Below, in pieces: positions 1 through 22,976 of a stretch of DNA of 64,000 bases. The notes beneath the pieces were generated by a model. The model was not told the origin of the DNA. It saw only the letters and a list, made by a program, of their open reading frames with translations, and did no database searches. Location of the stretch: assembly GCF_009828055.1 (NCBI RefSeq), contig NZ_WTYB01000003.1:151642-215641 (forward strand), in the 5' to 3' direction. Position 1 is the stretch's first letter; the number at the start of each line of letters is the position of its first letter. Made by a program: the position numbers and the translations under genes. The stretch comes from Erythrobacter ramosus. GTDB lineage: Bacteria; Pseudomonadota; Alphaproteobacteria; Sphingomonadales; Sphingomonadaceae.

Positions 1-302
1 AAGGTGAGACCAAAAAGTTGGCGCCGTGTCTTGCGCACTTCCTCACGATCAACGAGCCGGACTTCGCCCGCTTCCACCGCGCCGAGCAGCGCGCCAACCT
101 TATCGTCATAGCAGGCCGCGCGCTCGGGCACGCCCGCGATGCTGCGGCAGCCGCGTAAGCCGTCGAGCATAGCAGCAGCCCCTTGCACAGCGGGAACTTG
201 CGCGACCACAGCCGCACCGCCCGCCAACACAAGGGCGAGTGCTACGCCGCCGCGCACCATGCGGCGCTTCGCACCCGGACGTTTCTCTGACTTGCCGATC
301 AT
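1..302 (-). CDS. Small exported protein, paralogue of the 6053-6610 product (partial, runs off left edge)
   Basis: The reverse strand reads from an ATG at 302 (preceded by AAGGAG) through to base 1 without a stop, giving the first 100 residues of a protein. It begins with a basic segment (MIGKSEKRPGAKRR), then a hydrophobic stretch ending near VVAQVPAVQG, so it is probably exported or membrane-anchored. The visible part carries ERAACYD and VDREEVRKTRRQLFG, which match RLACYD and VDREEVREARRKLFG in the protein encoded at 6053-6610. The two are therefore paralogues on either side of a TonB receptor and oxygenase genes. It is transcribed divergently from the receptor at 552. The function is unknown. 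The stop codon lies outside the window. Confidence 0.75.
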   Translation of the reverse strand, partial: MIGKSEKRPGAKRRMVRGGVALALVLAGGAAVVAQVPAVQGAAAMLDGLRGCRSIAGVPERAACYDDKVGALLGAVEAGEVRLVDREEVRKTRRQLFGLT

Positions 303-357
303 GCGCGAATCTCCTTGGCGGTGAGGTGAAGTTCAAGACACAGCAATGACATGGTCA

Positions 358-377
358 ATCTGCAAACTATTGCAGAT
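358..377. promoter_or_regulatory. Perfect 8-bp palindrome, candidate operator upstream of TonB receptor
   Basis: The sequence ATCTGCAA-ACTA-TTGCAGAT forms a perfect dyad in the divergent gap between the genes starting at 302 (-) and 552 (+). TCTGCAA recurs at 433-439 and TTGCAG at 469-474 in the same gap, and ATCTGCAA occurs again at 13489-13496, upstream of the second receptor gene. A shared regulator of both receptors is an inference. Confidence 0.3.
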
Positions 378-426
378 AAGACACACTGAGCATCCACAGT
401 AATGTAACGAGACTGTAGCCGATCTG

Positions 427-449
427 CCACAGTCTGCAAGCAACTGTGG
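427..449. promoter_or_regulatory. Second dyad (CCACAGT-N9-ACTGTGG) in the same gap
   Basis: Perfect 7-bp arms at 427-433 and 443-449 enclose another TCTGCAA copy. It lies about 100 bp before the receptor start at 552, where a regulator could bind. No clear -35/-10 pair was identified in the 303-551 gap. Confidence 0.22.
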
Positions 450-551
450 CTCGCCCACAATCGGCCAATTGCAGGCAGGAACGCGATTGTCTTAAGCGCC
501 TATCACTACAACGCGGGCACCTCGTTCGCGTGCAACTAGGGGACCTGCAAA

Positions 552-3512
552 ATGCAACGCTTCCATAAGGCATCGCTGCTCGCCGGGACGATCATGGCTG
601 GCGCCGTGTTCGCCACTCCGGCCTACGCCCAGACCGAGACTGTTTCGGGTTCGGCTGAAGAAACGACTGAAACAACCTCCATTCTCGTAACCGGTTCGCG
701 CATTCAGCGCAGCGACCTGAACTCGACGAGCCCGGTTACCGTTGTCTCGTCCGAAGAATTCCGGCTGACGGGCGCGGTCAACGTTGAGCAGGTGCTCAAC
801 ACCCTGCCGCAGGTCCTCCCTGGCGTTACCGGCTTCTCGAACAACCCGGGCAACGGCGCGGTTACGCTCAACATGCGCAACCTCGGCGCCACCCGCACCC
901 TGGTGCTGGTCAACGGCCGCCGCTGGATGTTCTACGATACCAACCAGATCGTCGACCTCAACACCATCCCGCAGTTCCTGCTGGGCGGCGTGGAACTTTC
1001 GACCGGCGGCGGCTCGGCCGTTTACGGGTCGGACGCGATCGCCGGTGTCGTCAACTTCAACCTGCGCGACATCGAAGGGCTTGAAGTGGGCGGCAGCTAC
1101 TCGCTGACCGGCCGCGGCGATGCGGCGCGCTACCAGTTCAACGCCGCGATCGGCTCGGCGTTTGACGATGGCCGCGGTGCGGTGACCATGTTCGCCAACT
1201 ACACCCGTCGTGATCCCGTGTTCCAAGATGCGCGCGTCTTCTCCGAACGTGCGGCTGGCGACGGCTGCATCGTGCCCGGCAGTACCGGACGCGGTGACAT
1301 CGGCACCCCGTTCCCAAGTGGTATCGCTGTGGGTACCTGTATCGCCCGTGGCGGTGAACTTGGCTTCGTGCCGCAGGGCTCGGCGACCACGCCGACCGGC
1401 ACCTTCAACGCTGGCCCGACGGGTGCCCAGTCGACCTACATCTTCAATCCCACTGGCGGCGGTTCGCGTCTGTTCCAGGATCCGGGCGATCTCTTCAACT
1501 TCGCGCCCGACAACTACCTGCAGCTTCCGCAGGAACGTTACCTGATCGGCGCCTATGGCCACTACGAGTTCACCGACGGCATCGAAGCCTATTCGGAACT
1601 CTCGTTCGTGCGCAACGACGTCGCGACCGAACTGGCACCGACCCCGGCGGGCGTTTCGGCCCCGCTGTTCGTCAATAGCCCGTTCTTCAACGACCAGACC
1701 CGTGCGCTGCTTAACCAGAACCCGGCCGACGCGACCCGCGGTGCGCTCTACCGCAACACTCAGGTGAACTTCCGCTTCCAGGACATTGGTTCGCGTAACT
1801 CGGACTTCAACCGTGAAGCCTTCCGCGTGCTCGGCGGTGTTCGCGGCGGGATCACCGACAACATCAACTTCGATGCGTACTATTCGTACTCGCGCACGAC
1901 CAACACCAATATCCAGCAGGGCAACATCGCGCGCAGCCGTTTCATCAACGCGCTGACAACCGAGTTCGTGCCGGGCAGCACCACCCAGTTGCGCTGCGCA
2001 GATGCGGCGGCCCGTGCCGCGGGCTGCGTTCCGCTGAACATCTTCGGGACTGGCCTCGCCGACCCGGCGGCGCTGCGTTACCTAGCGATCCAGGCGACCA
2101 ACATCACAACCTCCGACATGAAAAATGCGGTGGCCTCGGTGAGCGGGACCCTGTTCAACCTCGGTACGGGTGCCGATGACATCGGTTTCGCGTTCGGCGG
2201 CGAATACCGCGCGGTGAGCTCGGAGTTCATCCCCGACACCTTCCTCTCTTCGGGCGACGTGCTCGGCTTCAACGCTGGTCTACCGACCTCGGGCGGCTAC
2301 AACGTCAAGGAAGTCTTCGGCGAAGTTCGTGTTCCGGTGATCGAAGACGGCTTTGTTAATGCCCTCGAGTTCACGGGTGCCTTCCGTTACTCGGACTACT
2401 CGCTCCAGCGCGTCGGCGGGACTTGGACCTATAACGTCGGCGGCGAATTTTCCCCGGTCGAGGGCATCCGCTTCCGCGGCATGTACTCGCGTGCCGTCCG
2501 CGCGCCGAACGTGCAGGATCTGTTCGGCGGTGCTTCGACCGGCTTCCCCGGTGCGACCGATCCGTGTTCGGATCGTGGTCCGGTGGCCGAGCGTACAGCT
2601 GCTCTGCGGGCGTTCTGCATCCAGTCGGGTGTGCCGGATGCTGCCGTGTTCACCCGCGCTGTGCAGCCCAACGCGCAGATCCAGGCCGACTTCGGCGGCA
2701 ACCCGGATGTGGGCGAGGAAACGTCGGATACCTACACTGCGGGTGTGGTGATTCAGCCGGGCTTCATCCCCCGTCTGAACATCGCCATCGACTACTTCAA
2801 CATCAAAGTTGAAGACACGATCAACACCCGTCTGGGCGGTCTAGGCAGCGCGCTGTCGCTGTGCTTCAACACCGTGCGGAACTTGCAGGATCCGGCGTGC
2901 TCGGCCTTCGTCGGGAAGCGCAACACCGGCACGGGTGCTCTTGGCCTGAACTCAGGCGGGCTTAATCCGTCGCTCGTGCAGGACAACGTCGGTCGTCTCG
3001 CGACCGCGGGTATCGATCTTCAGATCGATTACTCGCTGCCGCTCTTCAACGGCGACCTGTCGGTGATGTTCCTCGCCACCTGGCTTGACGAGTTCCGTAA
3101 CACCCCGGTGGCCCTGCTGCCGCTGCGCGAGAACATCGTCGAGGGCACCTACGGCCTGCCCGACTACCGTCACAACATGCGTGTGACTTACGAGCAAGGC
3201 CCGCTGACGGCTTCGGTGCGCTGGCGCTATGAAGGGGCTACGGAAGACTTCCGTGTGCAGAACACCTTCAGCGGCAATGACCGTATCCCGAACAACGCCC
3301 TGCCGCTGCGCTCGATCCCTGCTTGGAACTACTTCGATCTCGCTCTCGGGCTCGACGTGGACGAGCGCATGACGATCAACGCAGGCGTTAACAACCTGCT
3401 CGACAAGGCGCCCCCGGTTCTGGGTGCGCAGGCCGAACAGGGCAACACCCTGCCGAGCTTCTTTGATGTTCTCGGCCGCGACTTCTTCGTGGGTGTGAAC
3501 TTCCGCTTCTGA
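552..3512 (+). CDS. TonB-dependent outer-membrane receptor
   Basis: This 986-residue protein has a cleavable signal peptide ending ATPAYAQ, then the receptor plug (roughly residues 45-170, with ILVTGSRI, SPVTVVSSEEF and LVLVNGRRW) and a long 22-strand-type barrel ending in the aromatic outer-membrane signal VGVNFRF. It would sit in the outer membrane and import a bulky substrate using TonB-ExbBD energy. Barrel loops contain cysteine pairs such as CADAAARAAGC followed by VPLNIFG, typical of the large receptors of sphingomonads and caulobacters. The start is supported by AGGGGA 8 bases upstream. A strong terminator follows, so it is probably monocistronic. A related receptor is encoded at 10177-13320. 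The substrate cannot be told from sequence. Confidence 0.93.
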   Translation: MQRFHKASLLAGTIMAGAVFATPAYAQTETVSGSAEETTETTSILVTGSRIQRSDLNSTSPVTVVSSEEFRLTGAVNVEQVLNTLPQVLPGVTGFSNNPGNGAVTLNMRNLGATRTLVLVNGRRWMFYDTNQIVDLNTIPQFLLGGVELSTGGGSAVYGSDAIAGVVNFNLRDIEGLEVGGSYSLTGRGDAARYQFNAAIGSAFDDGRGAVTMFANYTRRDPVFQDARVFSERAAGDGCIVPGSTGRGDIGTPFPSGIAVGTCIARGGELGFVPQGSATTPTGTFNAGPTGAQSTYIFNPTGGGSRLFQDPGDLFNFAPDNYLQLPQERYLIGAYGHYEFTDGIEAYSELSFVRNDVATELAPTPAGVSAPLFVNSPFFNDQTRALLNQNPADATRGALYRNTQVNFRFQDIGSRNSDFNREAFRVLGGVRGGITDNINFDAYYSYSRTTNTNIQQGNIARSRFINALTTEFVPGSTTQLRCADAAARAAGCVPLNIFGTGLADPAALRYLAIQATNITTSDMKNAVASVSGTLFNLGTGADDIGFAFGGEYRAVSSEFIPDTFLSSGDVLGFNAGLPTSGGYNVKEVFGEVRVPVIEDGFVNALEFTGAFRYSDYSLQRVGGTWTYNVGGEFSPVEGIRFRGMYSRAVRAPNVQDLFGGASTGFPGATDPCSDRGPVAERTAALRAFCIQSGVPDAAVFTRAVQPNAQIQADFGGNPDVGEETSDTYTAGVVIQPGFIPRLNIAIDYFNIKVEDTINTRLGGLGSALSLCFNTVRNLQDPACSAFVGKRNTGTGALGLNSGGLNPSLVQDNVGRLATAGIDLQIDYSLPLFNGDLSVMFLATWLDEFRNTPVALLPLRENIVEGTYGLPDYRHNMRVTYEQGPLTASVRWRYEGATEDFRVQNTFSGNDRIPNNALPLRSIPAWNYFDLALGLDVDERMTINAGVNNLLDKAPPVLGAQAEQGNTLPSFFDVLGRDFFVGVNFRF

Positions 3513-3536
3513 TCCCGGTCAGAACCGAAAAACAAG

Positions 3537-3577
3537 AAAGGGCGGCGGATCAAACGATCCGCCGCCCTTTTCTTTTT
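3537..3577 (+). terminator. Intrinsic terminator of the TonB receptor gene
   Basis: A 12-bp perfect GC-rich stem (3540-3551 with 3556-3567, loop AAAC), extended by A/T pairs, is followed by TTTTCTTTTTT. It lies between the receptor stop and the convergent gene ending at 3592; A residues on the left could let it work on the other strand too. Confidence 0.9.
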
Positions 3578-3591
3578 TCCCGTGGGGGTCG

Positions 3592-5274
3592 TCAGCTGGT
3601 GGCGCTGACGTCGAATGCCACGGTCATGCGCGTGCCTTGGGAGATCGGGCGGGTGCCGTGGTAGAGCGTGCTCGGAAACAGCACGAGCGTACCGGGCTGC
3701 GGGCGGACCGTGTGCAGGCTGCCCAGACCTTCGGCGAGGCCTGGCGGCGGATTGCCGAGTTCAAGCCAGCCGGGCTGGCCTTCGGCTTCCACTTCGTCCG
3801 GCACCAGCCAGTAACTTGCCGAGGATAATAGCCCGCGCGGGTGGATATGGGCCGCGTGGTGGCCTTGACCGTCGAGCAGGATCGACCAGCTACCGACAAT
3901 CGTCCACGGATCGTCTCTGCGTGCAAGCAGAGGGTGGCGGGGATCGGGCGGCGGCATACCGGCGCGATATTCTGCCATCGCTTCGTGAAGAGCCGCTTCG
4001 AGCCGCGCGAGTTCTGGTTCGGCGCGTGCGAAAAGTGCCCCTTTGGTCTGGCTGCCTCGCTTGACCGACTGCCCGATCGGCATGGCCGAATGGCGGTGCA
4101 GCTGGGTCAGGAGCGCGGTCAGCGCTTCGCGCTCGCTTTCGTCCAGGGAGAGCGGCAGTTGCCGTACCAGCCCGCGCTGTCCGTGGAGCCATTCGTGCCG
4201 TGCGTCGCCGCTGAGCCGCCAGCACAGGTCAATGAGCGCCCACGCGACAACATCGCCGGGCCGGGCGGCGCATACCGTGGCCAGTTCAGCCTCCGCCCGC
4301 GCGATCTCACCAAGTCGCAGCCAGTTGCGCCCACGCGCGGTCGACCATTCTGGCGTCGCCATCCCTGCGAAAAGATCGAGCACGCCCTGCGCCTCGTCCG
4401 CGGCCCCGGCTTCGCCCAGTGCCACCGCCTGAGCCAGCGCAAGAACGGCGTTATCGGGCCAGATTGCGCGCGCGCGAGCGAGGATTGCGGCGCTCTCTGC
4501 TGGCCGGTCGACCCCTTCGAGCGTCTCGGACCATGCAAGCCACACGTCTGGCCCCGCGCCTTGCTGCGCCGCGACTTGCGCGAAGTGGTCAGCGAAGTTC
4601 GCTTGCTCTCCCGCCGCCCAACGCAGCTCGGCATGCAGCTTGAGCGCTGCGGTCCAGCCGGGCACATGCGTAATGAGCGTCGTCGTGCACTCCAACGCCT
4701 CGTCCAGCCTGCCGGCAACTGCGAGTGCCTGCGCGTAATCAAACAGCAGGCTGGGATCGCCGCGGTTGAGGGTCAAAGCCGTTTCTAGCAGGGTGATCGC
4801 ACTGGGGTCACTGCGTTCGAGAGCAAGCCGAGCGCGGCTGCGGGCGGTCTTAACTCCGCTCGGGTCGAGCGCCACCGCGCGCGCAATGCTCGCTTCGGCC
4901 TCATGGTAACGCATGGCTTGCCGCTCGCTGTCGGCACGCACCCGCCAATAGCCCGGATTATGCGCCGCTGCCATTTCGAGCGGAGCGAGCAGCGCGGCGG
5001 CGCGGGCGGGCTGGTCCATTCGGCTGAGTGTGATCGCCGCATTGATCCCCGCCTCGACCAGATCGGGTTCCAGCGAAAGCGCCCGTTCGAACAGCGCCAA
5101 AGCACGATCCAGCCGCCCCGCTTTGAAATGAAAATTGCCCGCACTGTTGGCGAGCCGTGCATCGTGAGGAAAGTCCGCCAGTCCGCGTGCGTAAAGGGTC
5201 TCCGCCTCGGCGTCGCGGCCCTGCGCGGCGAGCTGGCTCGCTGCCAGTGCCACGCTTTGCGCGCTTCCCGTCAT
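3592..5274 (-). CDS. TPR protein with C-terminal putative 2OG-Fe(II) oxygenase domain
   Basis: The 560-residue product has no signal peptide and should be cytoplasmic. Residues about 1-370 are tetratricopeptide-like helical repeats (AEAETLYARGLADFP, ALALFERALSLEPD). The last about 170 residues resemble the putative 2OG-Fe(II) oxygenase family (Pfam 2OG-FeII_Oxy_5): an H-x-H segment (HIHPRGLLSSASYWL, near 474) for iron and, about 60 residues on, LYHGTRP with a downstream arginine in RMTVAFDV for 2-oxoglutarate. It is the last gene of the minus-strand set, 16 bp after the oxygenase at 5291, with GAGAGG before the ATG. It is a clear paralogue of 8579-10105 (shared LFPST.YHGTRP and SVKRGSQT / SVRGGTQT). 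The TPR part may dock a protein substrate; the substrate is unknown. Confidence 0.85.
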   Translation of the reverse strand: MTGSAQSVALAASQLAAQGRDAEAETLYARGLADFPHDARLANSAGNFHFKAGRLDRALALFERALSLEPDLVEAGINAAITLSRMDQPARAAALLAPLEMAAAHNPGYWRVRADSERQAMRYHEAEASIARAVALDPSGVKTARSRARLALERSDPSAITLLETALTLNRGDPSLLFDYAQALAVAGRLDEALECTTTLITHVPGWTAALKLHAELRWAAGEQANFADHFAQVAAQQGAGPDVWLAWSETLEGVDRPAESAAILARARAIWPDNAVLALAQAVALGEAGAADEAQGVLDLFAGMATPEWSTARGRNWLRLGEIARAEAELATVCAARPGDVVAWALIDLCWRLSGDARHEWLHGQRGLVRQLPLSLDESEREALTALLTQLHRHSAMPIGQSVKRGSQTKGALFARAEPELARLEAALHEAMAEYRAGMPPPDPRHPLLARRDDPWTIVGSWSILLDGQGHHAAHIHPRGLLSSASYWLVPDEVEAEGQPGWLELGNPPPGLAEGLGSLHTVRPQPGTLVLFPSTLYHGTRPISQGTRMTVAFDVSATS

Positions 5275-5290
5275 CGTGCGCCTCTCAAGG

Positions 5291-6022
5291 TCACAGGCTG
5301 CGCAGCCACCCCGTCACTGCCATCCGCCCGATCGGAGCGAACGGCGGGACGTAGCTGACAAGGTGCGATTGCGGCACGCGAAACAGGTTCAGCGCATTGA
5401 AGCGGGGACGGAAACCCTCGATCACGTCGCCCTCGTCATTCAGAAACAGCAGGTAGCCGCCCCAGTCCGGATGCCAGTCGTCGCGCGCAAGGTTCAGCAC
5501 GTAGGCGACTTCCCAGCCTTCGGCGACATGACTGTCGTTGTGGCGGCCAAGATAGTGGCCGGGCGCGAACAGGGTTGCCTGACCGTCGGCCTTTACGAGG
5601 CCTTCGACGCCGGTGACCTTGCGAACCAGTTGGAGGAAGTCGGGGGTGTTGAGGTGTCCAAGCAAAATCTCGTGCGCGCCGCCCGGATCCCAGCCTTCGC
5701 GGATCGCCTCAAGGATCGGATAATGCGCGAAGCGGAAGCCATATTCGCCGCGGGCCGAATGCTGTTCGGCGTTCTCCATGGCGTGCCGGAGGGCCTGCTG
5801 GCCTTCGGGTGTGCGGCTGCGGGCGCCGCGCATGCTGGCGGGCTTTTCGGTCCCTGCGCCAATCGCGATGCCCCAATCCGTACCCCGTGCCAGCACCATC
5901 TGGAGTTCGCTGGCGCTTTCGGGCGTTAGCACATCGCGCAGCTGAACCCGTCCCGTCGCTGCGAAGCGAGCGGCGTAGGCTGGTATGTCGAGCGCCGGAT
6001 TGAGTTCGAAAAGGGTCTTCAT
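5291..6022 (-). CDS. 2OG-Fe(II) oxygenase, prolyl-4-hydroxylase-like
   Basis: This 243-residue protein carries the double-stranded beta-helix motif of 2-oxoglutarate/iron dioxygenases: H-x-D in GRHNDSH (about residues 161-163), a distal histidine in VPQSHLVSYV (about 220) and the 2OG-binding arginine in IGRMAVTGWL (about 231). The segment GGYLLFLNDEGDV is typical of the P4H-like subgroup, which hydroxylates proline or other residues in proteins and peptides. There is no signal peptide. AGGAA precedes the ATG. It lies 30 bp downstream of the small exported protein and 16 bp upstream of the TPR-oxygenase, so co-transcription is likely. Family and iron ligands are clear; the substrate is not. 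Confidence 0.88.
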   Translation of the reverse strand: MKTLFELNPALDIPAYAARFAATGRVQLRDVLTPESASELQMVLARGTDWGIAIGAGTEKPASMRGARSRTPEGQQALRHAMENAEQHSARGEYGFRFAHYPILEAIREGWDPGGAHEILLGHLNTPDFLQLVRKVTGVEGLVKADGQATLFAPGHYLGRHNDSHVAEGWEVAYVLNLARDDWHPDWGGYLLFLNDEGDVIEGFRPRFNALNLFRVPQSHLVSYVPPFAPIGRMAVTGWLRSL

Positions 6023-6052
6023 GTTTTCCTGACTAAATCGTCACGTCCGGGC

Positions 6053-6610
6053 TTACCGCACGCGCCGTCCCTTGACGCCCTTCTGGCCATCGATCCGCAG
6101 GAAATAGGCGCTGAACGCGCCGCTCTTGATCTCAAGCGACCTGCCGACTTTGGGCCGCATCAGGCTGGCGGGCATCTCATCGAGCTGCCATTCCGCGCCT
6201 TCCGCAGTCGTGATAACGAAGCGGCCGTTGACATTGCGAACCGCTGCAATGGTGGTGTTGAGCGTGGCGAATTCTTCGGCCTGCTCCGGGTCTTCTTTGT
6301 CGCTCTTGCCGCCGAAGATGCCGAGATCGGGCAGGGTGAAGCCAAACAGCTTGCGCCGCGCCTCACGCACTTCCTCACGGTCCACGACCCGGACTTCGCC
6401 GTCGCTGCTGGCGGCAACCATGGCTGACACTGCGGTGTCATAGCAGGCGAGGCGCTGGGCGGGGTCGGACTTGGACTGGCACTCGCGCAGCGCGGTGACA
6501 TAGCTGCTCTCGTCCGGGGCGACCTTGTCTTCAGCGGCGAGCGGCGCGCTGGCACCTGCGGCAATCGCAAGCGCCGTGCAGGCAACGGCGGCAGCACGGA
6601 TACGGGTCAT
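6053..6610 (-). CDS. Small exported protein of unknown function
   Basis: The start at 6610 is preferred over one 13 codons upstream because GGGAGAG precedes it and the protein then begins with a normal signal peptide (MTRIRAAAVACTALAIAAG ... APLAAED). The mature part of about 155 residues has a two-cysteine segment (ECQSKSDPAQRLACYD), then VDREEVREARRKLFGFTLPD, an acidic stretch, and a C-terminal beta-rich half (TTIAAVRNVNGRFVITTAEG) that ends in a very basic tail (KGVKGRRVR). The RLACYD cysteine motif is seen in assorted periplasmic proteins, but no function follows. A paralogue begins at 302. It sits inside the oxygenase/sulfotransferase gene set, so it may be the exported partner or substrate of those enzymes; that is inference. 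Confidence 0.8.
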   Translation of the reverse strand: MTRIRAAAVACTALAIAAGASAPLAAEDKVAPDESSYVTALRECQSKSDPAQRLACYDTAVSAMVAASSDGEVRVVDREEVREARRKLFGFTLPDLGIFGGKSDKEDPEQAEEFATLNTTIAAVRNVNGRFVITTAEGAEWQLDEMPASLMRPKVGRSLEIKSGAFSAYFLRIDGQKGVKGRRVR

Positions 6611-6691
6611 GGTGGTCTCTCCCAGCAAGGGCCATTCAGGCCCTGTCACTCGCGGCCCTGATTACCCCTGCAAGCGGCCCAAAGCAAACCG

Positions 6692-8572
6692 TCAAACCTC
6701 GTAGCCCATCCGTTCCGCCCACGGAGCGAGGATCGGCATCACGGGCGCGAGTTGATCGGCATAGCGCAGCCAGCGCCCACTCGCGCGGGTGTAGAGCTTC
6801 TCGCCAATCTGGGCGTAGCTGGCGGTCTTCACTCGGCCGCGTTCCTTCGCGGTTTCCTCATGGGCCAGCAGGCGATCGTTCCAGTCGAGACCCAGCCAAG
6901 ACACCAGCGGCTGCAACTCGCCGCGGGAATCTTCGACCAGCCGCTCGTAACGCACCGCGTGGGCGTTGATCGGGAACAGGTCGTTCGCGCGGTGCCAGGC
7001 GCGGAACACCGCGTCATATGTGCGCGCGGCTTCCTCAAGATCGGTGAAGCTGCGCATCGCGAAATTGAGCGTGAAATTGGCCATGAAGCAGCTCAGCACC
7101 ACGTCAGCCGGGTGACGCTCGGCGAGGATGAAGCGGGCGTTCGGGAAAATCCGGTGGACCTGCACGGCGCGCGCCATATTGAGCGGGTGCTTGTCGACCA
7201 GCCAGCGCTGGCCATCCCATCCGTGGCTCACAGCACTGGCGAAATAAGCCTCGCGGAGCTGCCCGCATTGCTGGGGGTTGAGCGCGGCGAGATCGAAGTC
7301 TCCCAGCATCCGCAGGATTTCCGCCATCATCGGGCGTTCTTCCAGCACGTGCAGTTCAGGCAGGCCCATCAACATCGTGTCGAGCAGCGTCGTGCCCGAA
7401 CGGGGGAAGCCGACCAGGATCACCGGATCGCGCCGCGCCGGATCACTCGCAAGCGGCGGAACCCAGCGCGCGGCCCACTCCGGTGTCCACCGGACCAGAT
7501 CAGCCTCGACACTTTCCCGGTACGTCGGCCCATGGCGCGGCGGCGCTTCGGCAATGGCGGCGGCGTTCATAGTCTTGAAAGCGGCAAAAGCACGGGGGCC
7601 ATCGCCGAGCCGCTCGGCGATATTGCCAATCAACGCCGCGCGCCGCATCGGGTGGATCGTTGTGGGGATCGCCTCTGCGTGCCTTGCCGCATCCTCGAAC
7701 CGCCCCTCGCGCTGGGCGAGCCATGCGTGCAGGAACGCGATCTCAGGCGGGCAGCTTGCGGTGTCGAGGGAAGCGAGGAACGCTGCCAGCGCTTCTGTGC
7801 GGTTGGTCGCTTCGTAGAGCCGACCGAGTTCGAGCTGTGCTTCGCCAAAGTCGGGCCAGCGCTGGACTGCTGCTTCCAGCACGGTAATGGCATCGTCGAG
7901 CAGTTCGTTATGCGCCAGCGCCATGCCAAGCTCGGTCTGTGCGATACGACTGTCCGGCGCTACCTCTACCGCATCGCGCGCCACCTTGAGGCGCGGTTGG
8001 CCCAGATCGGCCTGCCGCAGCACATCGGCGAGGTTGAGATACATTCCCACCTCGTCCGGCTGATAGGTGATCGCGTGTTCGAAGGCGTTGATCGCCTGAT
8101 CGAAATGGCCGGCAGCAGCGTGGATATTGCCGAGATTGTTCCAGCTGGCCGCATCCGAAGGTTCACCTTGAAGCACGCGGCCATAGGCCTGCACGGCCAG
8201 CGCCATCTCACCGCGCTGCTGATGCACCCAGGCTTCGATCCGGGCGAGGGCGGGCAGGTCTGAACCCTGCGCCAGCATCAGCGCCTCGTCCTCACGGCCC
8301 GCCGCCAGCAGTGCGCGTGCCAGATCGCCGCGGATCTCGATATCATCGGGACGCAGCCGTGCGAGGGCTTCGAGATGCGTCACCGCGCGCGGTGCATCAC
8401 CCAATTCAAGCGCGGCGAGGCCAGCAATCGCGAGGAAGGGCGCACCCGCCTCGGTTGCCGCAGCATGGCCCTCTGCCAATGCCAGCGCGCCAGCGGCATC
8501 ACCAGCTTGGCGCAGGCGGATCGCCTCGGTCAGAGCCGGGGGGAGCGCCGCGGTGGGGGTGGCCTGATACAT
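6692..8572 (-). CDS. TPR-sulfotransferase fusion protein
   Basis: The 626-residue protein has about 370 residues of tetratricopeptide repeats (for example SWNNLGNIHAAAGHFDQAINAFEHA, cut here only for naming) followed by a PAPS-dependent sulfotransferase domain. The 5'-phosphosulfate loop is ILVGFPRSGTTLLD (about 385-398). The 3'-phosphate-binding region is FILAERHPADVVLSCF (about 480-495). The catalytic-base candidate follows in HVLEERPMMAEIL. The arrangement matches the family annotated as TPR-containing sulfotransferase, distantly related to tyrosylprotein sulfotransferases. No signal peptide is present, so sulfation would occur in the cytoplasm. The gene begins only 6 bp after the stop of the TPR-oxygenase at 8579, showing tight coupling. 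The acceptor is unknown. Confidence 0.9.
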   Translation of the reverse strand: MYQATPTAALPPALTEAIRLRQAGDAAGALALAEGHAAATEAGAPFLAIAGLAALELGDAPRAVTHLEALARLRPDDIEIRGDLARALLAAGREDEALMLAQGSDLPALARIEAWVHQQRGEMALAVQAYGRVLQGEPSDAASWNNLGNIHAAAGHFDQAINAFEHAITYQPDEVGMYLNLADVLRQADLGQPRLKVARDAVEVAPDSRIAQTELGMALAHNELLDDAITVLEAAVQRWPDFGEAQLELGRLYEATNRTEALAAFLASLDTASCPPEIAFLHAWLAQREGRFEDAARHAEAIPTTIHPMRRAALIGNIAERLGDGPRAFAAFKTMNAAAIAEAPPRHGPTYRESVEADLVRWTPEWAARWVPPLASDPARRDPVILVGFPRSGTTLLDTMLMGLPELHVLEERPMMAEILRMLGDFDLAALNPQQCGQLREAYFASAVSHGWDGQRWLVDKHPLNMARAVQVHRIFPNARFILAERHPADVVLSCFMANFTLNFAMRSFTDLEEAARTYDAVFRAWHRANDLFPINAHAVRYERLVEDSRGELQPLVSWLGLDWNDRLLAHEETAKERGRVKTASYAQIGEKLYTRASGRWLRYADQLAPVMPILAPWAERMGYEV

Positions 8573-8578
8573 GTCGCG

Positions 8579-10105
8579 TCAATCCTGTCGGGGTCGGGCA
8601 ATATCGAAGGCGACCGTCAGCCGCTCGCCTTGGGGGAAGGGGCGCGTACCATGCCACATGGTGGATGGGAACAGCACCAGACGCCCCGGTTTGGGTTCAA
8701 TCAATTGGAGCTGCGCGAGGCCCGGCACCAGATCGCGTGCCTCGCCGAGCGAGAGCCATCCCGCATGATCATCCGCCCCCCCATGCCGACCAGCGCCCAT
8801 CGTTTCGGGCAGCGCGAGGTACAGGGCCGAACTGAACCATCCCTGCGGGTGGACGTGATCGGTGTGAAACCCGGCGTTCTCCAGTCTGACCGACCACGAT
8901 CCGGCAACCCGGACCGGAGCGCGATTGGCGAGCAGGGTAGGGTGCCCGGCATTAGGTGGGGGAAGTTGGGCGATATGCTGCGCGACGATGGCAAGTAGCC
9001 GCGCCTTGAGATCACGGATTGGCGGCTCGGTACGCAGTAGCAGGTTGCCGTCGGTCTGCGTACCGCCGCGGACCGATTGGTCGAGCGGGGCGGCCTTGGC
9101 ATGATGCAACCCGCGCAAATGGGCAGCCAGCGCGGCGAGTTCTTCGGGCGTAAGGCCGATGTCATAGACCCCGACCAGTCGCGGATCGCCTTCGAGCCAA
9201 TGCGCACGGGGATCGTCTGTCATGCGCCATGCCAGCGACAGATAGGGCCACAGCGCCAAGGCTCCGGGTTGGCTGACGCGGGGTTCGAGCAACGCAGCAG
9301 CGCGCTCTGGTTGGTTCCGGCGGATCAGGTGGCGGGCATACATCCACGCCTCGTTCGGGTCAGCGGGCGGCCCAGCGGCTGCGAAATGCGGATCGGCCGC
9401 GTCCAGCTCGCCGCTTTCCGAAGCGATATGTCCGGTGATCAGGCTGAGCCAGCGTTGCGACCGCAGCACCGCCTTCGCCTGTGACGCTGCGGCGCTGGCG
9501 CGCGGAAGATCGCGGGCTTGCAAGGCGAGTGAAATGGCGAGGTGGTGCAGTTCGGCTGCGCGCGGATGGTGCGCTAGCGCCGCGCCAACGCTGGCAAGCG
9601 GGTCTTCGCCCATCTGTCCGCGCAAACCGGCAAGGCTGCGATGCCCGTCGAGCCAAAGTGGATTAGCGGACAGGATGCTGGTCAGGAGCGCGATGCCCTC
9701 CTCTGCACGGCCCTCGGCGAGCAGTGCGGCGGCCTGGCCCAGCAGGATTCCCCCGTCCCGCGGCGCGAGCGGAGCGGCGGCGGCGAACAGGTCATCGGCG
9801 GGCAGTCCGGCTTCTAGCGCGGTGCGCGCGCGGGAATGAGCGATCAAGCCATCGCGGGGGGCGAGGGCAGCGGCGGCGCGGAAGGCTTCGTAAGCGGTGA
9901 GGCTCTCTCCGCAGGCGCGAGCGGTGAGGCCGAGCAATTGCTGGGACTGCGCATTGTCCGGGTGGCGCGCGGCGAGCCTACGCGCGTGGGGCAGCAGCAA
10001 TTCGGGAAAATCAGCGTTGATGAGGGCAAGGCCCGCACCCAGCGCGGCAGCAGGGTCAGCCAGCGGAAATTGCGCAATCCGGGCGAGGGCTTCGGCGTGC
10101 TGCAA
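8579..10105 (-). CDS. TPR protein with C-terminal putative 2OG-Fe(II) oxygenase domain (second copy)
   Basis: Paralogue of 3592-5274. I place the start at a TTG (10105) because AGGGAACC lies just upstream. The in-frame ATG at 10153 lies inside a strong hairpin (10130-10153) and would add only a basic tail, MAGRKARHFRFREP. From the TTG the product is 508 residues. The N-terminal about 330 residues are TPR-like. The C-terminal domain has DHVHPQGWFSSALYLALP (iron-ligand region, about 413) and FPSTMWHGTRP with ERLTVAFDIA (about 484-497). It lies between the receptor at 10177 and the sulfotransferase at 8572, 6 bp from the latter. It is cytoplasmic by the lack of a signal. Hydroxylation of a protein or peptide is inferred from family only. 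Confidence 0.85.
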   Translation of the reverse strand: MQHAEALARIAQFPLADPAAALGAGLALINADFPELLLPHARRLAARHPDNAQSQQLLGLTARACGESLTAYEAFRAAAALAPRDGLIAHSRARTALEAGLPADDLFAAAAPLAPRDGGILLGQAAALLAEGRAEEGIALLTSILSANPLWLDGHRSLAGLRGQMGEDPLASVGAALAHHPRAAELHHLAISLALQARDLPRASAAASQAKAVLRSQRWLSLITGHIASESGELDAADPHFAAAGPPADPNEAWMYARHLIRRNQPERAAALLEPRVSQPGALALWPYLSLAWRMTDDPRAHWLEGDPRLVGVYDIGLTPEELAALAAHLRGLHHAKAAPLDQSVRGGTQTDGNLLLRTEPPIRDLKARLLAIVAQHIAQLPPPNAGHPTLLANRAPVRVAGSWSVRLENAGFHTDHVHPQGWFSSALYLALPETMGAGRHGGADDHAGWLSLGEARDLVPGLAQLQLIEPKPGRLVLFPSTMWHGTRPFPQGERLTVAFDIARPRQD

Positions 10106-10129
10106 GGTGACTGGTTCCCTGAAACGAAA

Positions 10130-10153
10130 ATGGCGGGCCTTTCGGCCCGCCAT
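10130..10153 (-). terminator. Hairpin between TonB receptor and TPR-oxygenase genes
   Basis: A perfect 10-bp stem (10130-10139 with 10144-10153, GAAA loop on the minus strand) is followed on the minus strand by TTTCGTTTC. It starts 24 bp after the receptor stop codon. The U-tract is interrupted, so it may be a partial terminator or an RNA-stabilising 3' end that lowers expression of the enzyme genes relative to the receptor. Confidence 0.6.
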
Positions 10154-10176
10154 CTCGTGTCTAACGGTTCGGACGC

Positions 10177-13100
10177 TTAGAAATCAAGCGTCACGCCCGC
10201 GAACAGGTAGCGACCAAGCGCATCGTAAGTCTGCGCGAAGACGTTGCCGTTACACGGACCCGCCGGGCAAGCCTGCGAACCGGTCGTCGGCGGCGCCTTG
10301 TCGAGCACGTTGTTGGCGCCGAGGACGAAGTTGAAGTTGTCCCCTGCGTCGAACGTGAAGGTCAGGTCGAAGTAGTTGACGGCATCAAAGCCGGCAGCAC
10401 CCGGACGGGCAACACCGCCCGGCGACGGGCCGGTACCACCGGTGTTGCTCAGGTTAGTGTTGGTCGACACGGAGTCGAGACCGACGCCGTCGAAGTAACG
10501 CCAGCGCACCGAAGCCCCAATTCCGTTACGGAAGTTGAAGCCCACGCGAGCCTGGTGGCGCCATTCGGGGTTCGGCGAACCGCAAACGTTGCCGTACAAA
10601 CCGACGCAATCGAAGGTCTGATCCAGACCCGGGATGGTAACTCCGGTGTCGGTAACCAGCTTATCAAGGTAGGTGCCGAGGAAGTTGAAGGTCAAGGTGC
10701 CGAGATCACCGATTTCGGTGTTGTAGTTCACCTGACCATCAATACCCGAGGTCTTGAAGCCACCGATGTTCTGCGTCACGTTGGTGGTGAAGCCACCAGC
10801 CGAACGCCACAGCGAACCGGTGGGGTCACGGTTGATGAGGCCGCAGAAGAACGGATCCGCCGTTGCGGTACAGGCCGCAAGGATGGTGTCCGAACCGATC
10901 CCGCCAATCGCCTGCGCAATGTCGATGTTGAAGTAATCGACGCTGGCGGTGAAGCCGGGCAGGAAGGTCGGGGTGATCACCACACCAGCGGTGTAGGTAT
11001 CGGCGATTTCGGGCTGCAGGTTGGCATTGCCGCCGACAAAACCGTTATACTGGTCAGCCGGGTTCGGAGCGACGAACTGGCCGACGCTCAGGCCCTGGGC
11101 AAGACAGCCGGTGTTGGCAGCAGTCAGGACGAAGCCCGCACAGGGGTCCGACGAACCGTCAAGCGCGACGAGGTTCGGCGCGAACAGATCCTGCACCGTC
11201 GGTGCACGCACCGCACGGTTGAAACCACCGCGGATGCGGAAGTCACGGATCGGAGCGAACTCACCTTCGATCTTGAAGGTGTCGGTGTTCACGCCGGTGC
11301 TGTAGTCCGAATAACGGTAGCCGCCGGTGACGGTGAAGTCATAGACCCAGCTGTCCTGCGCGATCGGGATACGGACTTCGGTGAAGAATTCCTTCACGTT
11401 GAAGCTGCCGCTGACCGGAAGGGTCGCCGCGCCCTGACCAGCAAGGTCGCCGGTGCTGAAGGCGGAGTCCGAGTTGAACTCAAGGCTTTCCTTGCGGTAT
11501 TCGACACCGAACACCACGTCGACGCCTTGGTCGGCCCAGGGGGTCTTGAGGCCATATTCACCGAGCGAACCCGACAGGAACGCGTTGGCGACCTGCTGGC
11601 TCACGACGCCGCGCGAGAAGCCCGGAGTTGCGAGGTAGGCAGTTGCCGCAGCCGACGGGGTCACAGTGCCCGGCGAGAAGATGTCCCACGGCACGCAGTT
11701 CGGGTCCGTACCGTCGAGCGTCGAACGGCAAACCGGTGTACCGCCGGGGCCGGCGACGACATCGATGGCGCGGCCAAGACGGGTGACCGAGAAGTCGTTC
11801 AGGTAGGTCTGGGCGTAGTTGTTACGACCATACTGGTAGAACGCATCATACGACCAAGCCGGCGACAGATCACCCTTCACACCGATGACGGCGCGATAGC
11901 TGACATGCTGGAGATCGTCCTGACGGCCGCCACCTTCAACGTTACGACGCAGGATCTGAGCGAAACCACGGTTGTAGCTGGTGCCGTCGATCTGATTGAC
12001 GAAGTTGAACGGAGTGGTCGGCAGCAGCGGCTCGCCAAGGCCACGCGCCACGCGGGCGGCGTTTTCAGCGGCAACGTTGCCGGTCACGATGAAGGCGTTA
12101 CTCGGCAGCGGGCTGACGAGCAGGTTGGCGTTGTTGCACAGGGCAGCGCGCTGACCGGCACCCAGCAGCGGGTTGTCGCAGTTGATCGACAGGGTGTTGC
12201 CGAAGTTACCCGACGGAGCGATCTGGGCAACCGTACGGTCGTCCATGAACATGAACTCCATGTACGGCTTGATCGCGCTCGAGATTTCGTAATCGGCGAA
12301 CAGGCCGGCAGTGTAACGTTCGTCCGGGCGCTGGAAGTAGTTCAGCGGACCGAAGTTGAACGGCGTGGTGCCGCCGAGCAGCGTACGGTTCGGGCCGAAC
12401 TGCGCGAGGGTCGAGGTGAAGTCGGCGCCGAAGCCTTCGTTGTAGAACACGGTGCCGGTGGCCGAGGTGGCCGAGCCGCCGCAGTTGTACTGGCGACCAA
12501 GGGTCGTAGTGGCAGCGGCAGTGTTCGCCGAGAGCGAACAAGCCGAGTAATCGCGGCGAGCCTGCAGCACCGGATCGATCTTGCGGTAGCCGAGATAGGC
12601 AGTGACGCGGCCACGGCCATCGTCAAAGCTGCTGCCGAAGGCGAGGGTGCCATCAAAGGTGCCGCCATCGGTGACCATGCCGGTCGGGTAGCCGAAGCGA
12701 CGCGCGTCATTGGCGCCGCGAACGTCGGCCGAGGCGCGGTTGTTGTGGTTGAAGGTACCGTAGTTGAGGTTGACCTTGAACCCTTCGAAGTCGGTATCGA
12801 GGACAAAGTTCACAACGCCCGCGACCGCGTCCGCACCATACACCGACGAAGCACCGCCGGTCAGCACGTCGACGCGCTCGATCAGAGCGGCCGGAATCAT
12901 GTTGATGTCGGGCGACGAAGTCGACGGCGTGCCCGGCGCCATGCGGCGACCGTTAACGAGGACCAGCGTACGCTCGGAACCGAGGCCGCGCAGATCGAGG
13001 GTCGCCGTGCCGGTCGAACCGTTCGAGACGTTACCGCCCTGGCCCGCGAAAACCTGCGGCAGCGAGTTGATGAGATCTTCCACGCGGGTCGTACCGGTGA

Positions 13101-13320
13101 GGGCGAATTCCTCGGCGGTCACGACGGTTACGGGGCTGGCCGATTCCAGGTTCGGCGAACGCAGACGGGTGCCGGTGACGACAATGCCCTGACCCGGCTC
13201 TTCAGCCTCTGCGGTGCTATCGGTGGTAACGTCGGCATCCTGCGCGTAGGCAGGAGCGGCGACAGTCAGGGCGATGACGGCAGTTGCCGCACCAGCCTTG
13301 AGAAGCGCGTGCTTCTTCAT
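10177..13320 (-). CDS. TonB-dependent outer-membrane receptor (second copy)
   Basis: The 1047-residue product starts with a signal peptide (MKKHALLKAG ... APAYAQD), then the plug domain (IVVTGTRLRSPN, SPVTVVTAEEF, TLVLVNGRRMAPG, VLTGGASSVYGADAVAGVVNFV), and a barrel ending FAGVTLDF. The order and motifs match the receptor at 552-3512, but the two differ too much for a recent duplication. GAGGAGGAAGACC precedes the ATG. It is the first gene of the minus-strand set, so receptor and modification enzymes could share a promoter, with the hairpin at 10130-10153 between them. It should act in TonB-driven uptake across the outer membrane; the ligand is unknown. Confidence 0.93.
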   Translation of the reverse strand: MKKHALLKAGAATAVIALTVAAPAYAQDADVTTDSTAEAEEPGQGIVVTGTRLRSPNLESASPVTVVTAEEFALTGTTRVEDLINSLPQVFAGQGGNVSNGSTGTATLDLRGLGSERTLVLVNGRRMAPGTPSTSSPDINMIPAALIERVDVLTGGASSVYGADAVAGVVNFVLDTDFEGFKVNLNYGTFNHNNRASADVRGANDARRFGYPTGMVTDGGTFDGTLAFGSSFDDGRGRVTAYLGYRKIDPVLQARRDYSACSLSANTAAATTTLGRQYNCGGSATSATGTVFYNEGFGADFTSTLAQFGPNRTLLGGTTPFNFGPLNYFQRPDERYTAGLFADYEISSAIKPYMEFMFMDDRTVAQIAPSGNFGNTLSINCDNPLLGAGQRAALCNNANLLVSPLPSNAFIVTGNVAAENAARVARGLGEPLLPTTPFNFVNQIDGTSYNRGFAQILRRNVEGGGRQDDLQHVSYRAVIGVKGDLSPAWSYDAFYQYGRNNYAQTYLNDFSVTRLGRAIDVVAGPGGTPVCRSTLDGTDPNCVPWDIFSPGTVTPSAAATAYLATPGFSRGVVSQQVANAFLSGSLGEYGLKTPWADQGVDVVFGVEYRKESLEFNSDSAFSTGDLAGQGAATLPVSGSFNVKEFFTEVRIPIAQDSWVYDFTVTGGYRYSDYSTGVNTDTFKIEGEFAPIRDFRIRGGFNRAVRAPTVQDLFAPNLVALDGSSDPCAGFVLTAANTGCLAQGLSVGQFVAPNPADQYNGFVGGNANLQPEIADTYTAGVVITPTFLPGFTASVDYFNIDIAQAIGGIGSDTILAACTATADPFFCGLINRDPTGSLWRSAGGFTTNVTQNIGGFKTSGIDGQVNYNTEIGDLGTLTFNFLGTYLDKLVTDTGVTIPGLDQTFDCVGLYGNVCGSPNPEWRHQARVGFNFRNGIGASVRWRYFDGVGLDSVSTNTNLSNTGGTGPSPGGVARPGAAGFDAVNYFDLTFTFDAGDNFNFVLGANNVLDKAPPTTGSQACPAGPCNGNVFAQTYDALGRYLFAGVTLDF

Positions 13321-17225: not shown

Positions 17226-18221
17226 CTATTTGATCAGGTTGTCCGAGATCGAACAGGCTGCTGGACCAAGAATAACCACGAACAGCGTCGGCAGAATGAA
17301 CACGATCAGCGGCACGGTCATGATCGCAGGCAGACGCGCGGCCTTTTCCTCGGCGCGCATCATGCGCTCGTTGCGGAATTCGGCCGAGAGCACACGCAGC
17401 GCGGACGCGAGCGGGGTGCCGTAGCGTTCGGTCTGGATCATGGTCGTCACCACGCCTTTCACCGCTTCCAGATTGACGCGGTAGGCGAAGTTGTTGAACG
17501 CCATCTTGCGTTCGTTGAGGAAGCTCAATTCGATCGCGGTCAGGGCGAATTCGTCGCCCAGTTCCGGATAGGCGCGACCCAGTTCCTTGGCGACGCGGTT
17601 GAAGGCGGCGTCCACGGTCAGACCGGCTTCGGCGCAGATCACCAGCAAGTCGAGCGCGTCCGGCAGGCCCTTCTGGATTTCCTTGGTGCGCTTGCTCGCC
17701 TTGTTCTTGAGGTAGATCTCCGGTCCTTTGTAGGACAGGAACACGGCGCCGCCGAACACGGCGAGGCGCTTTATCGGACCCCAGTCGGGCCAGAAGTCGA
17801 TCCAATAGATCAACAAGCCCAAGATGATGCCCACCACCACCGGAAGGATCGCGCGGGCGCCGATGATCAGCACCGCGAGTTCTTTGTTGCGGTAGCCAGC
17901 GTGCGCCATCTTCTGCTGGATTACCTTGATCTGGCTTTCCTGAAGCACGTTTAGGCGGCCAAGGCTGTCCTTGACGCGGTCAGTCGTGTCGGTGCGGCGT
18001 ACCAGACTTGTGCGCTTCTTCGACGCCGAGGTGACGATCCCGGCCTTCAGCTGTTCACGCCGCGCCTCAAGCGCTTTGACGCGCTTGGCCATCGGATCAC
18101 GGATCGTGACCGCAGCATAGATCGCCAGCATCACGGCAAAGGCGGCCAGGCCAGCCAGCAGCGTGCCGACGAGGACGACGTCGAAGCCAAGCAGGGTCGG
18201 GCCGGTGGGTTGGTTGATCAT
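17226..18221 (-). CDS. tadC: Tad pilus inner-membrane platform protein TadC
   Basis: The 331-residue protein is a GspF/T2SSF-family membrane protein: an N-terminal membrane segment, a cytoplasmic linker rich in charged residues (about 45-120), two central membrane segments, the T2SSF domain with GLPDALDLLVICAEAGLTVDAAF (stated in part) and FALTAIELSFLNERKMAF, and a C-terminal membrane segment ending with SISDNLIK. TadC and TadB together form the platform for assembly of the Flp-type IVc pilus. It is the last gene of the minus-strand block and starts 19 bp after tadB. Family assignment is firm. Confidence 0.93.
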   Translation of the reverse strand: MINQPTGPTLLGFDVVLVGTLLAGLAAFAVMLAIYAAVTIRDPMAKRVKALEARREQLKAGIVTSASKKRTSLVRRTDTTDRVKDSLGRLNVLQESQIKVIQQKMAHAGYRNKELAVLIIGARAILPVVVGIILGLLIYWIDFWPDWGPIKRLAVFGGAVFLSYKGPEIYLKNKASKRTKEIQKGLPDALDLLVICAEAGLTVDAAFNRVAKELGRAYPELGDEFALTAIELSFLNERKMAFNNFAYRVNLEAVKGVVTTMIQTERYGTPLASALRVLSAEFRNERMMRAEEKAARLPAIMTVPLIVFILPTLFVVILGPAACSISDNLIK

Positions 18222-18240
18222 GATGTTTTGCCCCCCGCCA

Positions 18241-19212: not shown

Positions 19213-19319
19213 GTCTAAGCTTCCTGCCTGGTTCCGCCGGGCTGCGGCGGCGCAAATCCTGTATCACTGCGTCGGCTGCGGGACGTCTGAGCGCCCCGCG
19301 CCGTGTGCGCAGATATCGG

Positions 19320-20600: not shown

Positions 20601-20603
20601 GGC

Positions 20604-21284: not shown

Positions 21285-21303
21285 CGTGGTCACCTTTCTC
21301 ACG

Positions 21304-22890: not shown

Positions 22891-22976
22891 GGGTTGCCCC
22901 CCTTCGGGTTTGCCACGGGTTGCCTGGAAAGCAGGCAAGCGATGGGTCATGGTCTTCAACATGGTCCTGATGCCTC

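Follow-up and report, generated by a model that had tools for sequence, protein, structure and literature searches.

A stretch of 64,000 nucleotides from Erythrobacter ramosus (here called the window) carries, near one end, two TonB-dependent receptors, several enzymes of hydroxylating and sulfating families and two copies of a small exported protein, raising the question of what these enzymes modify and whether the receptors are involved. The features of the locus are as follows, with the basis of each assignment in parentheses.

1..302, minus strand: CYD copy b, a small exported two-cysteine protein truncated by the window start (complete copy of 190 aa at L007:11372-11944)
552..3512, plus strand: TonB-dependent receptor P0007, 986 aa (Pfam, tree, alignment)
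3536..3571, no strand: bidirectional terminator-like hairpin of 16 pairs between P0007 and the operon end (hairpin analysis)
3592..5274, minus strand: second TPR + 2OG oxygenase (PF13759) P0001, 560 aa (Pfam, alignment)
5291..6022, minus strand: 2OG-Fe(II) oxygenase (PF13661) P0002 (Pfam, alignment)
6053..6649, minus strand: small exported two-cysteine protein P0003 (CYD copy a), 198 aa (ORF, homologues)
6692..8572, minus strand: TPR + PAPS sulfotransferase (PF13469) P0004, 626 aa (Pfam, alignment, PDB sequence matches)
8579..10153, minus strand: TPR + 2OG-Fe(II) oxygenase (PF13759) P0005, 524 aa (Pfam, alignment, structure model, fold search)
10177..13320, minus strand: TonB-dependent receptor P0006, 1047 aa, 14 cysteines, first gene of the operon (Pfam, tree, cysteine count)

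Gene content and predicted enzymes

Six genes form a minus-strand operon running from 13320 to 3592 (ORF reading and Pfam scan), in the order TonB receptor, TPR-2OG oxygenase, TPR-sulfotransferase, CYD (our name for the small exported two-cysteine protein), 2OG oxygenase and TPR-2OG oxygenase, separated by 23, 6, 42, 30 and 16 bp. ORFs and Pfam recovered every component listed in the initial annotation (two receptors, two TPR-2OG proteins, a TPR-sulfotransferase with FPRSGTTLL, a PF13661 oxygenase and two CYD copies); the tight spacing that it described is also real, but the range is 6-42 bp rather than 6-30 bp. Receptor P0007 lies outside the operon, convergent with it and divergent from CYD copy b. 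The window is read as a tandem pair of modules from one locus, since other relatives lack the second half. Paired components have diverged: the receptors share 34% identity, P0001 and P0005 35% over 425 columns, and the CYD copies 42% over 152 aa. The window region holds both PF13759 proteins (2/2), both CYD-like proteins (2/2) and one of two PF13469 sulfotransferases of this genome, in which TonB plug matches number 34 per 3.24 Mb. Both receptors match PF07715 and PF00593 (plug and beta-barrel) above the Pfam cut-off.

The folds and residues of the tailoring enzymes are typical of protein modifiers, as judged from sequences and a predicted structure. The pattern H433-x-H435...H501...R511 (numbered as in P0005) is shared without exception by 49 TPR-2OG sequences, and these predicted ligands, HxH...H...R, depart from the classical HxD triad. 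P0005 has no signal peptide on reading, and its model (pLDDT 94.5) retrieved AspH as all ten best PDB matches, at low TM-scores (0.30/0.35), followed by TPR domains, O-GlcNAc transferase first among these; the Pseudomonas putida prolyl hydroxylase:EF-Tu complex ranked 34th. The intact P4H-like HxD...H...R reported for P0002 was borne out, as H161-x-D163...H220...R233 is invariant in 18 distinct aligned sequences. A PF05118 TPR-AspH is absent from the window and present in sister islands; the sole one tested, from locus L051, matches AspH at 1e-26.

P0004 is predicted to be a TPST-like sulfotransferase of polypeptide tyrosine. Its FPRSGTTLL loop lies in the PF13469 domain, and R391, E412 and S494 are invariant in 15 distinct aligned sequences; from the alignment, E412 is presumably equivalent to Glu99 of human TPST2. 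P0004 thus has the 5'-PSB loop Arg, 3'-PB Ser and Glu/His base positions of the TPST/RaxST kind, whose roles in these sulfotransferases are described in PMC6637879. Seven of the nine PDB sequence matches to the domain are TPST1/2 or a TPST fragment (best 7e-16), and TPST matches, covering residues 13-255 of 256, are the sole ones to span it whole, with the scarcity of solved structures among sulfotransferase relatives favoring TPST as the top match. A further protein of sister islands, STL (c37), contains HSGFCCSTL, which by eye resembles a P-loop sulfotransferase; single members gave no Pfam match at E 0.01 and no PDB match below 0.2.

CYD copy a has an in-frame ATG at residue 14, ahead of the signal peptide. 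The CYD model (pLDDT 80, pTM 0.42) retrieved no fold at E <=0.001. Membership of VasI was considered for copy a and rejected, as all Pfam/NCBIfam matches, VasI included, are below threshold.

A receptor clade with interchangeable enzymes at a recurring chromosomal site

The set is conserved far past close relatives, as the family-wide sample supports. The two closest named relatives, at 91 and 93% identity in the TPR-2OG protein, retain all of it. At 72-78% identity some relatives also keep it whole, and three (L154, L155 and L156) lack the second module, so that constancy of the neighbors, on which the initial annotation staked its proposal, holds at 91 and 93% but not throughout the 72-78% group. 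Within the family, a TonB receptor occurs within 5 kb of 66/87 TPR-2OG genes (the window's two included, and some lying at contig ends, where neighbors are not visible) versus 1/19 other PF13759 genes (five of them from the long-frame set).

After removal of mirror copies and correction of boundaries, 74 distinct complete islands were recognized, running from clpB to thiolase (33) or M23/xseA (41); the island of the window could not be counted, as clpB lies beyond the window. Every one contains a TonB receptor (74/74), with its best match in a single receptor clade in 73/74. CYD occurs in at least 59/74, a lower bound, as CYD labels are incomplete (that at L100 was lost in labelling). One or more of six tailoring enzymes occur in 72/74, in 19 combinations: TPR-2OG, TPR-sulfotransferase (TPRST), TPR-aspartyl beta-hydroxylase (TPRASPH), PF13661 oxygenase (P4H), methyltransferase (MT) and an unclassified P-loop-like protein (STL). 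The remaining 2/74 have receptor and CYD with no labelled enzyme.

One comparison drew on 150 places with PF13759 and on the 87 best of those with P0003; of the weaker P0003 rows, 12 were added later. Three sets of loci, which overlap in genomes, were used: 86 family loci selected by the length of their PF13759 frames (>=380 aa), 80 of 156 named loci chosen by similarity to P0005, and a further 20 loci, 12 picked for known receptor-CYD neighbors, one for its receptor and seven by CYD alone. Frequencies of TPR-2OG in the islands are inflated because loci were chosen by PF13759/P0005. Receptors were disregarded in choosing 64 of the 74 islands, which were taken for TPR-2OG, and all 64 have a receptor of the clade (64/64).

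In the receptor tree, P0006 and P0007 belong to a single clade with 114 members (support 92), and the 18 other receptors of this genome in the tree all lie outside it. Island-clade receptors are cysteine-rich, and CYD is frequently divergent from the receptor. TPR-2OG lies within 6 kb of 15/18 receptors with >=50% identity to P0006 and of just 17/53 at 35-49% identity; in one homologue search, up to five candidates per genome were scored, among matches to E 1e-100. Enzyme presence also follows the receptor tree, with fewer changes than in shuffled data for TPRST (6 versus 35.7), TPRASPH (9 versus 26.6), MT (7 versus 19.6), P4H (12 versus 22.2) and STL (5 versus 8.8), a pattern that co-inherited neighbors also give. 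Raw correlations between receptor residues and enzymes reach 0.82 before relatedness is allowed for; once it is, no residue of the selected types, among the columns listed, tracks an enzyme, and for TPRST the test had six independent pairs and no power (best Tyr column, median p 0.5).

These observations show a clade of cysteine-rich TonB receptors and an interchangeable enzyme set at a recurring chromosomal site. The association could be one of position only, the site being a recombination hot spot among housekeeping genes that collects unrelated accessory genes. The 19 combinations in 72 islands and the relatives at 72-78% identity that differ by one module are in keeping with this, as is the scarcity of the receptor link outside the family. 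Nevertheless, two different flanks show the same recurring gene families, receptor-first operons with tight gaps occur, and TPR-2OG also adjoins TonB genes in halogenase and c26/c27 contexts, and we consider a purely positional association very improbable.

Beyond the family, most loci lack the receptor link. A receptor lies within 5 kb of only 3/20 sampled long PF13759 genes, in loci that were hand-picked, with four belonging to a different 2OG subfamily by profile, three being shorter than 20 kb, and the receptor profile having been derived from sphingomonads. Two of these loci (L256 and L270) have TPR-2OG and TPR-sulfotransferase together without a receptor. The co-occurrence of enzymes and receptors anticipated at the outset is a property of the family (66/87) and for the most part does not extend beyond it (3/20).

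Candidate substrates

The initial annotation proposed a locus for hydroxylation and sulfation tied to an outer-membrane receptor. Conservation, folds and the residues of protein modifiers are consistent with this, but its substrate candidates could not be singled out. Our tentative preference is for a sphingomonad receptor-tailoring island, in which the enzymes would modify a polypeptide made by the locus, most likely the receptor. The choice of the receptor, the least supported part of this reading, is suggested by its presence in all complete islands. The operon enzymes are probably cytoplasmic, because they have no signal peptide on reading and PAPS and 2-oxoglutarate are cytosolic. From their families and folds, the TPR solenoid would hold a polypeptide in its unfolded state for hydroxylation or tyrosine sulfation by the C-terminal domain ahead of Sec export. 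Marks on receptor surface loops could then change ligand specificity or block attachment of phages or bacteriocins.

The small exported proteins offer a different substrate. GSRL (also our name) denotes exported two-cysteine proteins of ~90-120 aa in many sister islands, found in island gaps as a cluster of 68 ORFs from 57 loci. The enzymes might modify GSRL or CYD instead of the receptor, the product being secreted or working with the receptor. GSRL profile matches occur in 65/186 loci (three sets, overlapping in genomes) versus 0/14 control loci; GSRL is present in 36/74 complete islands and is commoner with TPRST (23/37) than without (13/37; p 0.036, neither corrected nor adjusted for relatedness), up to four copies stand beside STL (L062), and CYD is itself frequent. 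However, profile search found no GSRL gene in the window, the single listed match in this genome is weak and on another contig, and GSRL is absent from all eight P4H islands among the 74. Moreover, 86 of the best 134 matches checked are not within 10 kb of a known island marker, in a ranking biased by a model built from island members. The GSRL invariants in nine aligned sequences (C, G, C, T and W) include no tyrosine, and the aligned CYD sequences have no obvious modification target, their invariant residues looking structural. Modification of a small exported protein is, on balance, unlikely.

A RiPP precursor within the window operon was considered and rejected, the intergenic gaps of 6-42 bp being too short to contain one. 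No precursor candidate was seen in the window island, and GSRL is a candidate in the 36 complete islands that have it.

Another possibility is that the enzymes tailor a ligand of the receptor, a small molecule or a peptide, which it would import or retrieve, as at siderophore loci. Small molecules are also among the substrates of 2OG oxygenases and sulfotransferases, the receptor clade and the enzyme set are associated, and TPR-2OG, TonB and Trp-halogenase-like genes form a second context. Against this, the labelled island genes include no NRPS, PKS, exporter or inner-membrane transporter, and the fusion of TPR to three unrelated catalytic domains, together with the TPST/AspH-like domains, points to polypeptides. 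We regard ligand tailoring as slightly less likely still.

If the receptor reading is followed further, interchangeable enzymes encoded at the locus might hydroxylate sphingomonad outer-membrane receptors and sulfate their tyrosines in the cytoplasm, prior to export. The site would then act as a cassette altering the surface chemistry of a single receptor clade, perhaps for a different ligand choice or escape from phages or bacteriocins. This full proposal is somewhat doubtful, and we know of no outer-membrane protein modification of this kind. TonB receptors are entry points of nutrients, phages and antibiotics, and covalent marks on them would therefore alter the understanding of such entry. 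If the receptor or an exported partner is the substrate, the locus would be a genetically compact bacterial system of protein hydroxylation and tyrosine sulfation; if a ligand is, orphan receptors of sphingomonads would still gain a testable connection to tailoring chemistry. The 19 enzyme combinations are natural variants for comparison.

Comparison with known systems

Searches of the open-access literature listed no paper recognizably about this locus, nor any on the halogenase sets described below. The raxX-raxSTAB locus of Xanthomonas is similar in having a TPST-like PAPS sulfotransferase in a small cluster, and the essential Arg, Ser and Glu/His of RaxST correspond to R391, S494 and E412 of P0004 (PMC6637879). 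In that system RaxAB exports RaxX, a double-glycine precursor of 60 residues, and the passages on RaxST mention no TPR domain (PMC6637879). P0004 has one. Unlike raxX-raxSTAB, the window operon lacks a type I exporter, its 6-42 bp gaps exclude a 60-residue precursor, and the locus includes a TonB receptor and hydroxylases.

Sets of TonB and tryptophan-halogenase-like genes also place a receptor beside tailoring enzymes, and some include TPR-2OG (L048, L064, L084, L224, L225 and L229; L037 likewise has a TonB gene). They differ in having receptors of another clade and usually a LacI gene, and the labelled genes of the six halogenase loci include neither a sulfotransferase nor a CYD. The window locus also resembles siderophore receptor loci adjoined by a PiuC/YbiX-type 2OG hydroxylase in having a 2OG oxygenase next to a TonB receptor; the PiuC/YbiX type is a single iron-uptake gene, with which no TPR or sulfotransferase is known. 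This genome has a PF13640 match 3-5 kb from two TonB plugs.

Human AspH is an aspartyl/asparaginyl beta-hydroxylase, and O-GlcNAc transferase is a TPR protein modifier; proteins of these kinds gave the best matches in both fold and sequence. P0001 and P0005 differ from AspH in belonging to PF13759, with the HxH...H...R pattern, and not to PF05118, and AspH has an EGF-like substrate, of which none is known at the window locus. The architecture is nevertheless the same, as AspH and O-GlcNAc transferase, like the TPR-2OG proteins, have an N-terminal TPR region and a C-terminal catalytic domain.

Tandem modules in the window

The window (contig 4, bases 151642 to 215641, of a 3.24-Mb genome) carries duplicated receptor and tailoring genes, arranged with their surroundings as follows.

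Minus strand: six-gene operon, 5' to 3', encoding TonB receptor P0006, TPR-2OG oxygenase P0005, TPR-sulfotransferase P0004, CYD protein P0003, PF13661 oxygenase P0002 and TPR-2OG oxygenase P0001
3536-3571: strong bidirectional hairpin between the operon and the convergent receptor P0007
13668-17177: thiolase, SDR, enoyl-CoA hydratase and MarR genes (names by reading)
17226-24098: Tad pilus-like genes (named by reading)

Gaps within the operon are, in order, 23, 6, 42, 30 and 16 bp. P0003 is a small exported protein, and its name, CYD, comes from its C...CYD motif. A second CYD gene, cut by the window start, is divergent from P0007, and genes for an S9 peptidase, a third receptor and clpB lie upstream of it. 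In this flank (L007:5592-11284) the third TonB receptor and then the exported S9 peptidase stand directly upstream of the window, and the TonB-S9 order was found again in five mapped receptor rows. Elsewhere in the genome, a PF13640 match (G000:C2:38390-43700) lies 3 to 5 kb from two TonB plugs, a layout like the known PiuC-type arrangement.

Pairwise identity between the window duplicates is 34% for the receptors, 35% for the TPR-2OG proteins and 42% for the CYD proteins. The closest named relatives of P0005, in a comparison that may omit the host's own record, are in Porphyrobacter sp. UBA7686 (93%) and Porphyrobacter sp. SLTP (91%), which makes the host a sphingomonad of the Erythrobacter/Porphyrobacter type. 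Locus maps (percentages are identities of the TPR-2OG protein) place the whole set in L152 (93%), L153 (91%), L157 and L160 (both 74%) and, as far as the contig reaches, L158 (76%); L159 (73%) differs only in that no first CYD is labelled. Only receptor, TPR-2OG, TPR-sulfotransferase and CYD genes, in that order, are present in L154 (78%) and L155 (76%), and only the first three in L156 (72%). Other genomes have the second kind only (e.g., L099 and L104), with CYD divergent from TonB, followed by convergent methyltransferase, TPR-2OG and PF13661 oxygenase genes. The window contains both kinds of module in tandem.

A conserved island and its receptor clade

The association of these enzymes with TonB receptors, proposed in the initial annotation, held within the sphingomonad family of the host but mostly not beyond it. 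Mapped loci comprised 86 with long-frame PF13759 genes from a family search of 149 genomes, 14 short-frame controls (of 55 such places), 80 named loci and 20 loci with no TPR-2OG close by that were picked on the basis of CYD or receptor, with gene labels assigned by profiles built in this analysis. In the mapped family loci, a TonB receptor lies within 5 kb of 66/87 TPR-2OG genes versus 1/19 other PF13759 genes. Among the named loci, which were selected for similarity to P0005, 78 carry a TPR-2OG label (2 of 80 do not), with TonB within 5 kb in 72/78 and a TPR-sulfotransferase in 59/78. In 35 of the 52 genomes having both, CYD and a long-frame PF13759 gene are no more than 12 kb apart; 36/89 long-frame genes have a CYD at this distance, compared with 4/61 shorter ones.

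These genes occupy an island bordered by clpB on one side and by a thiolase cluster or M23/xseA/purD on the other (33 and 41, respectively, of 74 distinct complete islands). TonB is present in 74, TPR-2OG in 63, CYD in 59, TPR-sulfotransferase in 37, TPR-aspartyl beta-hydroxylase (TPR-AspH) in 20, methyltransferase in 16, the unclassified P-loop-like protein STL in 15 and PF13661 oxygenase in 8. One or more of the six enzymes occur in 72/74, in 19 combinations. TPR-2OG was the only selection criterion for 64 islands, and in every one of these a receptor has its best match within the island clade; the other 10 were drawn from the 20-locus set. Map counts for that set give other tailoring enzymes in 13/20 loci and TonB beside CYD in five of the seven picked by CYD alone. 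Many relatives also have the thiolase/SDR/enoyl-CoA hydratase/MarR genes, followed by Tad pilus-like genes, next to the island.

A tree of 198 receptors places P0006 and P0007 together in a clade with 114 members (support, 92). All 18 other receptors of the window genome in the tree (of 32 other plug matches) lie outside it, as do 26 receptors labelled convergent with clpB. The island clade is cysteine rich (median, 13 cysteines versus 2 in those 18 receptors), and one cysteine pair is almost private to it (90% versus 0 to 1%). TPR-2OG lies within 6 kb of 15/18 receptors that share 50% identity or more with P0006 and of 17/53 at 35 to 49% identity; in one of the three exceptions (G066), a TPR-sulfotransferase adjoins the receptor. 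The presence of TPR-sulfotransferase, TPR-AspH and methyltransferase fits the receptor tree much more closely than shuffled labels do, and the advantage is smaller for PF13661 oxygenase and STL. Such a fit is expected both of co-inherited neighbours and of functional partners.

Outside the family, a receptor lies within 5 kb of only 3/20 sampled long PF13759 genes. L256 and L270 (the latter from G196, a 1.4-Mb genome), in other families of the same class, hold clusters of TPR-2OG and TPR-sulfotransferase genes in which no receptor is labelled, so the enzyme pair is more widely spread than the receptor link, which looks mainly a sphingomonad trait. L261, from another family, has STL, TPR-AspH, TPR-sulfotransferase, TonB and TPR-2OG together. 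In a second TPR-2OG context (L048, L064, L084, L224, L225 and L229), the TonB receptor belongs to a different clade and is accompanied by genes read as tryptophan-halogenase-like, with a LacI gene in 5/6 loci.

Enzymes and their candidate substrates

The structure model of P0005 is confident (pLDDT, 94.5), and AspH structures containing TPR and oxygenase domains take the top ten places among its solved matches (E, ~1e-8; TM, only 0.30/0.35). TPR domains follow, foremost O-GlcNAc transferase, and bacterial 2OG structures appear at ranks 33 (2rg4) and 34 (prolyl hydroxylase with EF-Tu). The P0004 sulfotransferase domain matches TPST1/2 along its length (7e-16). Its loop Arg, 3'-PB Ser and Glu at the base position, residues whose roles are described in PMC6637879, are invariant in 15 distinct sequences. 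Sister islands carry an extra TPR-AspH (PF05118 in the scanned member; AspH match, 1e-26). The enzymes were read as lacking signal peptides. The fusion of three unrelated catalytic domains to TPRs at a single site points to a polypeptide substrate.

The receptor is the sole component common to all complete islands; no receptor residue tied to any enzyme was found. We therefore rank it first as the candidate substrate, with modest confidence. An exported partner is a serious rival: CYD is present in most islands, and GSRL, a second family of small exported two-cysteine proteins, in 36/74. GSRL was not found in the window, and 48 of the 134 best GSRL matches checked lie in islands. The ligand is likewise a serious rival as the molecule modified. 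GSRL proteins (~90 to 120 aa; pattern C..GSRL...C.T..EW) were seen in L046, L062, L070 and other sister islands, with as many as four copies next to a P-loop-like protein; the members scanned against Pfam and NCBIfam gave nothing above the cut-off.

Relation to described systems

Among the papers listed by open-access literature searches, none describes this locus in its title or the opening of its abstract. The nearest described bacterial analogue met was raxX-raxSTAB, which relies on a type I exporter and, in the passages of PMC6637879 considered, includes neither a receptor nor hydroxylases. We class the locus as a variant of protein or peptide tailoring clusters, apart from the Rax system, whose exporter and precursor the operon lacks.
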